The notes beneath the pieces were generated by a model. It ran no database searches. It saw nothing but the letters and a program-made list of their open reading frames with translations, and was not told the DNA's origin. Positions 12,184 to 14,488 of a DNA stretch of 64,000 bases are shown in pieces. Position 1 is the stretch's first letter. Every line of letters begins with the position of its first letter. The position numbers and the translations under genes were made by a program. This stretch comes from Lepraria neglecta (lineage: Eukaryota; Ascomycota; Lecanoromycetes; Lecanorales; Stereocaulaceae). The stretch spans positions 2,542,001-2,606,000 of the forward strand of contig CM065652.1 of NCBI GenBank assembly GCA_033220425.1, given 5' to 3'.

Positions 12184-13419
12184 GAAACGGCGTGCGTCAA
12201 CTCAAGTTGTCTCGCCGATCGTCCTGGTGCCTCCGCCGAAGAAGCAGAAGTCAAGCGCCAAGGAATCTACGCCCCCTAAAACAACTTGGAAATGCCGTGC
12301 ATCAACTCGAGATGCGTCGCCGGATATCCAGGCACCAGCACGAAAGAAGCAGATCCAGATCCAGGTGTCAATGTCCAAGGAAGATGCACGCCGTCGGGAG
12401 ATTTTCTTCAATGCGATGGCAACCATCGACCGCACCAGGAGCTTGAAAGGCTCAAAGCAGAGCGTAATACCACAATCCATGGATACGTACCCTATGGTAG
12501 GCAGCGTGCATCAAATACGAAGAGGAGCAATGGTAAAGCTGTACGCTTCGAAAATGGAGAACTCACTCCTTATGAACAATTCGAGGGAGATACGGAGCGA
12601 CGTATGAGTGAACTAGACGGAAATCTTCTGAAGGAAATTTCTGATGAGGTCGATCGCGAACTAGCTGAGCTCTCTGAAGAGGAGAATGATGGACAGACAA
12701 CTTGTGAATATGGCCATGAGAGAGAGCAGGGCGATAAAGAAGAGGGAGACTCGAGCTCTGTGGTAAAGAGGTCTTCCGAAGGTATTATCGTCTCTCAGAA
12801 AGACGTTGTCAAAAGCACAACAAATTCCTCCAGAACTTCCGAGCCCCAGTCTGCCCTCCCTCAAGAAGCTCTCGAAATCAAGAAACGCTATGGCGCCCTC
12901 AAAGCCTCAGCCTGGAAATGGGCCGTCAAGCACTTCCCCAAGGTCCCTAATTCAACCAAACCATCGCTCAACCTGCCGAGGCTAGCTGAAACATCCCCTG
13001 AGCTGGTGGAGTTCGTCAACTACATCTCCGCTTGCACTGATAACCCTTGGGAATACATCTTCAACGAGCAGCGACCAAAACTTGTGTATGGCATCCTAGG
13101 CAAAATGCTTGAAGTGATGTGTTTGGACATGAGATGTTTGGCGCAACAGACGAACAGCTGCAAATACTGAAAGAGCGAGATTTAAATGAGGTCCACGCAG
13201 ATGGTATGTCTCCTCACCTACACCCAACCGCATTTCTCACCTACCCCAGCAATGAGTATACTAACACATCCCAGCCCTGCACCGAAACACCTCCCGCTTC
13301 AACCTCATCCCTACCTTCACCACACCACCTGCGGATCTCATTTCTTCACTCAGCACCCTCCAAGCCTCCTTCCTCCACATGCTCCACCCTCTCTTAACCT
13401 CCCCCTCCTCCACCTCCGC

Positions 13420-13954
13420 CAACGCTCTTGATGGTCCAAACGGTCCAGTTTGAAAGGCAAACCGTCCAAAGTGACGGTTTTTAGTGGTTGGTGGTCCGGT
13501 TTGAAAATCAAACCGTTTGAACTCCGTTTAAACCGTCGGTTTAAACGGTTTTAAACGGTTTGAGTGCGAGGGTACTGGGAAGGAGCCGCAAAGCACCTAG
13601 ATTTGGTGTAAATCTCACCAAAATTAGGTAACCGCAAGCTCAAGTTGAATGTGAGTTTCCTTGAAGCTTTGGAGTTTCTGCGGGCAAGCCCCAGGTATAG
13701 GGCTAGGGCTACTAACCCTAAGAATTTGGTAATACGCTAACTCTTATAAGTAAGACGCTAACCTAATTAAAAAAATTTGCCACACCTCCGCAAAACCGGC
13801 GGTTTAAACCGTTTAAACCGTCAACCACATAAGTCAGACGGTTTAAACTGGACCAATAAGATCTCAAACTGGACCAACTACGAAGCAAAAAAAAGCAAAC
13901 CAACCGTTTAAACCGCCAAGCCCTTAAGTAGTCGGTCGACCATCAAGAGCGTTG
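13420..13954 (+). mobile_element. non-autonomous hAT-type MITE, 535 bp
   Basis: The ends are a perfect 17-bp inverted repeat: CAACGCTCTTGATGGTC at 13420-13436 and its reverse complement at 13938-13954. It is flanked by an exact 8-bp target-site duplication ACCTCCGC (13412-13419 and 13955-13962). An 8-bp duplication and the terminal CAACG, which fits the hAT end consensus YARNG, place it in the hAT superfamily. It has no coding capacity, so it must be mobilised by a transposase elsewhere. Subterminal regions carry six copies of GTTTAAAC plus variants. The intact duplication and perfect ends point to a recent insertion. Deleting the element and one duplication copy leaves the host reading frame continuous. 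Confidence 0.9.
13526..13913 (+). repeat. subterminal GTTTAAAC motif array inside the MITE
   Basis: The palindrome GTTTAAAC occurs at 13526-13533, 13539-13546, 13802-13809, 13811-13818, 13841-13848 and 13906-13913, with near variants such as GTTTTAAAC between. The copies cluster toward both ends and are absent from the middle, as expected for transposase-binding subterminal repeats of hAT elements. That role is inferred. Confidence 0.7.
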
Positions 13955-14488
13955 ACCTCCGCCCTACCCTCCCTCTCAAACTCCCTCTCCCGCATCCTCC
14001 AAAACGCAGCAACTCTCTCACTCCTCGCCCGCCGCCAGCAAAAGACCCTCTACCATTTCTCCCCGCATCCAGCTATCGGCTCCCATTTCTCAAGTGAAAC
14101 GATGCATGCTCTCAACCCCATGGAAGTAAGGAAGGGGAACATCACACGCCTCAGCTCCGACATCAAAATCGTAACAATGACAGGCTGGCCAGCTTGCATC
14201 GCCTACGCTTCTTCAAGAAGCAAGAAGAAACGAAAAGTCGAAGAAACTGTCCTGGACAAAGCAGAAGTCCTCCTCCAATGGGGCGCAATGATAAAACCCC
14301 TCTCCATCGAACCCGAAAATTGGCTAGGTCCAAGTCTGAGAGAGGAGATAGAGAGTAGGCAGAAATGGGTGATAAGGCAGCGGGCGGAGAGGAAGGCTGT
14401 TGTGGGGGCGGGGTTGGCGACTGGGATGGGGTTGGTGGGGCTGTGGGCTGTGCAGAGGGCGGGGGTTATGGAGGGGTTGAGGGGGTAG

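Follow-up and report, generated by a model that had tools for sequence, protein, structure and literature searches.

A non-autonomous hAT element in a coding exon of Lepraria neglecta and a full-length relative with an open transposase frame

Maize Ds elements are internal-deletion derivatives of varied length that depend on an autonomous hAT partner. The 535-bp insertion described here, which lies in a 64,000-nucleotide stretch of the Lepraria neglecta genome (the window), is like Ds in its deletion-derivative form, but it sits in another host and its mobility is judged from sequence. In fungi, the hAT elements Folyt, Hornet and Drifter occur in Fusarium oxysporum, and Drifter is reported to have landed within a coding sequence and broken its reading frame (PMC3599309, in part). 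The window element, also a hAT in a fungus, is likened to these three by description, and it differs from them in being non-autonomous. Families of hAT elements are also present in Pyrenophora (PMC3538342, in part). Among short fungal elements, the mimps of Fusarium are miniature Impalas, with Impala listed under Tc1 (PMC3599309, in part), and Mycosphaerella graminicola carries 13 MITE families, one of which has an 8-9-bp target duplication (PMC4522978, in part). The window element shares with fungal MITEs that it is short, non-coding, bounded by terminal inverted repeats (TIRs) and flanked by a target duplication (TSD), but no uniform set of 535-bp copies was found for it. Both hAT elements and insertion into fungal coding sequence are already in print, and we regard this as standard transposon biology and an ordinary case. 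What the locus offers is a gene-disrupting insertion together with an element of the same genome that is a candidate for having moved it, which makes activity directly testable. Fifteen bases of the element end and their reverse complement gave no match in the open-licence papers searched.

The element is bounded by perfect 17-bp TIRs, with an exact 8-bp duplication, ACCTCCGC, directly outside both (Table 1). A first-pass annotation of the window had placed the element at these coordinates with these repeats and this duplication, and all three were confirmed base for base. A scan of the 64-kb window that asked for perfect 12-nt inverted repeats, spaced by 60-3000 bp and flanked by an exact 8-nt duplication, returned a single pair, the one at 13420-13954. 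In uniform random sequence, with 900 possible spacings, about 5e-8 pairs of a 17-nt TIR and an 8-nt TSD are expected per 64 kb. No reading frame of at least 80 aa lies wholly within the 535 bp. The short palindromic repeat GTTTAAAC occurs six times in the element, twice in the full-length relative L009 described below, and nowhere else in the 64-kb window; these repeats are possible transposase-binding sites. Ac-like hATs show the TSD pattern nTnnnnAn, which the window TSD does not have, and base composition over 32 target duplications of the family revealed no strong preference. The 17-bp TIRs fall within the 5-27 bp published for hATs, which typically make 8-bp TSDs (PMC12506042, in part).

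Table 1. Features of the insertion and of the host coding sequence (window positions)
Feature	Positions	Strand	Basis
TSD, left copy (ACCTCCGC)	13412-13419		exact match to right copy
TSD, right copy (ACCTCCGC)	13955-13962		identical to left copy, 8/8
Non-autonomous hAT element, 535 bp	13420-13954		own-genome matches ending at its termini; outer ends 98-99% to L009
Left TIR, 17 bp	13420-13436	+	17/17 complementary to right TIR; identical to both L009 ends
Right TIR, 17 bp	13938-13954	-	complementary to left TIR, 17/17
Segment corresponding to 3' end of full-length element, downstream of transposase frame	13420-13675	-	alignment to L009
Segment corresponding to 5' end of full-length element	13675-13954	-	alignment to L009; terminal 89 bp close, inner part more diverged
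Subterminal palindromic repeats GTTTAAAC	13526-13913		starts at 13526, 13539, 13802, 13811, 13841, 13906
Host coding sequence left of insertion	13275-13419	+	open frame, codon score
Likely intron (GTATGT...CCCAG) before left host exon	13204-13274	+	boundaries inferred from sequence
Host coding sequence right of insertion, to stop 14486-14488	13963-14488	+	open frame, codon score

The element belongs to a sizeable family. We searched the 42.0 Mb of the same genome (11 contigs) with window positions 13400-13970 and obtained at least 71 matches, 40 of 81 candidates having been scored. By hand count, and leaving the query itself apart, 54 of the 71 listed matches come within 4 bases of either element end. 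A degenerate 17-nt end pattern, with at most one mismatch allowed, was found at 90 genome sites (49 forward, 41 reverse), against two for the reversed control pattern. The search of the genome for paired ends with duplications, which the first-pass annotation had suggested as a check, was carried out on 53 genome stretches, with acceptance of an 8/8 TSD offset by up to 3 bases on each side or a 7/8 TSD without offset. It returned 38 paired elements of 353-3,976 bp, 31 with an 8/8 TSD and seven with 7/8. Eighteen left-end rows stayed unpaired: two repeat another row, one (C1:6103357) finds its partner in a different stretch, several more are weak inner matches, and no fewer than four come from candidates that have both ends and no duplication, namely L014 (797 bp), L037 (2,250 bp), C2:5074421-5074883 in L012 and C7:1552136-1552613 in L066. 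Thus, 8/8 TSDs are present in 31 of at least 42 both-ended relatives; among the 38 paired elements, which were selected for a TSD of at least 7/8, the share of clean duplications is biased upward.

The most informative member of the family is L009 (C4:874677-877914), a 3,238-bp element whose 17-bp ends are identical to those of the window element and whose own duplication is offset by 2 bases. It contains a stop-free frame of 823 codons, and the predicted protein matches the Pfam domains Dimer_Tnp_hAT (E 1.6e-19) and zf-BED (E 4.8e-05). Four solved relatives were found at E values up to 1, all of them transposases and two named Hermes. The best PDB match is the Hermes transposase (E 2.8e-10), which rests on the C-terminal part of the protein (694-793), and within this significant stretch SSEPERVFSS aligns to the Hermes segment SAASERTFS. 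The protein also holds CDMWTS and MDNAHSND, the former aligned to Hermes only within a 0.6-bit stretch that is meaningless on its own. These three are putative counterparts of the motifs expected for the hAT catalytic D, D and E residues. Because L009 shares the 17-bp ends and encodes a hAT transposase with zf-BED and dimerisation domains, the 535-bp insertion is, judged by this relative, a hAT element, as the first-pass annotation had proposed.

Duplications of 8 bp do not by themselves point to hAT, as Mutator-like, P and Merlin transposons make them too. Zisupton is a further case (PMC12730594, in part), and one could suppose that the window element is mobilised by a transposase of one of these other superfamilies, Zisupton-like ones included. 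We give this explanation almost no weight, as the full-length relative that shares its 17-bp ends carries, in an unbroken frame, a hAT transposase.

Alignment of the window copy to L009 suggests how a hAT of this size arose. The left-hand 256 bp of the window copy match the 3' end of L009 and the right-hand 280 bp its 5' end, and about 2.8 kb of interior are absent. On the left side, identity to L009 is 98.8% over 85 bp and 99.2% over 120 bp; at the right end, the terminal 89 bp agree at 98.9%. The inner right part is a mosaic: it departs from L009 at 15 of 214 aligned bases and from L013 at 20 of 274. In addition, about 59 bp (13502-13560) and about 60 bp (13806-13865) of the window copy are absent from L009, and these two stretches hold four of the six GTTTAAAC repeats. 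The extra stretches and the diverged inner right part indicate that L009 is a close relative of the source and not the direct parent.

The nearest relatives, L013 (617 bp), L014 (797 bp) and L010 (576 bp), have different internal junctions, and none of the 38 paired elements has the same length of 535 bp. Thus, the window element seems to be one of several single deletion derivatives. A second instance of its length was not seen among these 38, so that a second movement of this junction was not observed. These findings bear on the term MITE, which the first-pass annotation had used. It is apt in so far as the element is short, non-coding and bounded by TIRs and a TSD; the many near-identical copies of uniform length that the term also implies were not found, and the family consists of singles of different lengths. 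A Ds-like description fits the ends, which are nearly identical to those of L009, and the missing interior, with the two indels and the mosaic inner segment as exceptions. From this comparison, we prefer to describe the element as a Ds-like, low-copy derivative formed by internal deletion.

Based on these comparisons, we propose, with high confidence, that the insertion is a hAT transposon of the cut-and-paste type, deprived of its transposase by internal deletion and moved in trans by an L009-type relative into a coding exon, where it produced the 8-bp duplication. The deletion would have removed the transposase gene of a full-length hAT, and a full-length relative of the L009 type would then supply transposase in trans. 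This enzyme would bind the 17-bp ends, and perhaps subterminal repeats of the GTTTAAAC type as well, cut the element out, and join it into a staggered 8-bp break in the exon. The open frame of L009 suggests that it is autonomous, and L009 or a close relative presumably moved the window copy. It had been predicted that an active hAT transposase should exist in this genome. A full-length, stop-free predicted transposase frame with the same 17-bp ends was indeed found in L009; that its protein is made and active is what we infer.

The claim that the insertion lies in a coding exon stands, since the host frame is open to the left and right of the element without a shift of phase (...LLTSPSSTS / TSALPSLSNSLSR...) and is supported by codon scores on either side. 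Codon usage, trained on ten window frames of at least 300 aa (4,251 codons), favours this frame at 13270-13390 and mostly at 13960-14260, with modest scores; from about 14290 another, stop-bearing frame scores higher. The same phase had been read as seamless continuity of the host frame across the insertion. The phase does agree, but the element plus one TSD measures 543 bp, or 3 x 181, so the host phase matches with or without the element. Within the element the host frame meets 14 in-frame stops, and the host protein would be truncated at the first of these, at 13451. None of the four host reading frames reaches the curated Pfam cut-off; a single match, to SKG6, falls below it (12.2 of 30 bits). 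Host sequence from the right side, searched as protein, and from the left side, searched as DNA, matches only itself in the same genome.

Truncation would be avoided if the 535 bp were spliced as an intron and the host protein still made. The element offers some material for this: CTAAC branch-like motifs lie at 13712, 13737 and 13758, there is a GTAAG at 13750, and the element plus TSD is divisible by three. The donor side argues otherwise. The host exon from 13275 up to the element holds no GT, and the only GTs between 13275 and the stop at 13451 are GTCCAA (13434), GTCCAG (13443) and GTTTGA (13448), all within the element and none of the form GTRNG. The first GTRNG from 13380 onwards is at 13564, past four stops. 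On the acceptor side, the last YAG before 13990 (at 13929) lies 171 nt past the last CTRAC motif. Judged from these splice motifs, the element is highly unlikely to act as an intron, and we retain the reading in which it interrupts the exon.

The age of the insertion is a separate question. It had been argued that such clean ends imply a very recent event, and we reject this argument: clean TSDs are common in the family, with 8/8 duplications in 31 other copies. These include L011, a degenerate 3,976-bp element in which every reading frame is shorter than 120 aa. Likewise, 21 elements are less than 80% identical to the window copy over their terminal 100 bp, and 18 of these have clean duplications, although distance from the window copy is not insertion age and other subfamilies may have moved recently. 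Given that only elements with a TSD of 7/8 or better were selected, and that distance is not age, a clean TSD is uninformative; the count does not prove those copies to be old. It would thus be wrong to take perfect TIRs and TSDs as a clock.

Other features of the window copy say more about its age. Across 529 alignment columns with at least three sequences, its private differences number five. In each of them the change is A>G or T>C, the window copy showing G/C against A/T in the other sequences; private changes from G:C to A:T are absent. Among the private changes of its relatives, G>A or C>T account for 11 of 17 in L010, 5 of 12 in L013, 11 of 42 in L014 (partly misaligned) and one of two in L009. 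The 98-99% identity of the outer ends to L009, whose transposase frame is unbroken, together with the lack of private changes of the type left by repeat-induced point mutation (RIP), supports a recent insertion, whereas the failure to find an identical second copy speaks against it. We regard this evidence as mixed and leaning, with moderate confidence, towards a recent insertion.

The opposite view is that the insertion is old and fixed in a gene that was already decaying, and that its ends are clean because 25 bp on each side seldom mutate. The 31 other copies with intact duplications, the degenerate one among them, fit this view, as does the host gene itself. Apart from the insertion, the host frame changes upstream, where two open frames overlap at 13113-13170, and host codon scores weaken again after 14290. 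Twelve GT-AG stretches of 40-120 nt would bridge this frame change, none of them with a branch-like YTRAY motif. A lesion or an assembly error may account for the frame change, and so may an intron with weak signals, for example at 13084-13157 (74 nt), which would count against this view. The downstream host frame is open for about 174 codons, and the near-identity of the outer ends to L009 and the direction of all five private differences also speak against it. An old, fixed insertion is unlikely in our judgement, and we lean towards a recent one.

Changes of the RIP type bear on the transposase copies as well. RIP consists of C-to-T and G-to-A changes (PMC12506042, in part). Of 32 protein matches in the genome, L009 alone spans the entire L009 protein without stops; the remaining rows contain 179 TAG, 140 TAA and 3 TGA (summed by hand). 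This excess of TAG and TAA over TGA in other hAT copies is RIP-like, the pattern expected from such changes. Other long hAT transposase copies, for example those at C3:4500529-4502289, C2:5907837-5910257 and C6:935357-937225, have dozens of TAG or TAA and almost no TGA. Short introns and this RIP-like decay are features that mark the source of the window as probably fungal.

It might be that a two-part system is still mobile in a genome that otherwise inactivates its transposons by RIP, in which one unmutated transposase gene of the lineage drives short, distinct, low-copy derivatives that escape RIP and now disrupt genes. We offer this only tentatively and doubt it more than we favour it, and it is weakened by stop-free hAT-domain stretches outside L009. 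A genome search that ignores introns gave 18 matches to Dimer_Tnp_hAT, eight of them stop-free: L009 (823 aa) and seven stretches of 102-153 aa, which could be exons of other transposases. On account of these stretches we do not claim L009 to be the sole intact transposase of the genome. One stop-free hAT-domain stretch lies in L064 (452-3205; C8:1080451-1083204), an element of 2,754 bp whose ends are similar and whose TSD is 8/8. The longest frames inside this element are 100-133 aa and may be exons, and its hAT-domain stretch is absent from the listed matches to the L009 protein; possibly L064 represents another lineage, either intron-bearing or decayed.

Two further observations concern the wider family. 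In five copies (L009, L020, L022, L034 and L039) an 8/8 TSD is separated from the TIR by 1-5 extra bases, which are possibly flanking DNA carried along by imprecise cutting. L059 and L060 are 98.7% identical. L056 (C4:2872230-2872938) and L057 (C6:4294932-4295452) have different 8/8 TSDs, and a stretch of 367 bp is 100% identical between them, which points to recent movement in the wider family.
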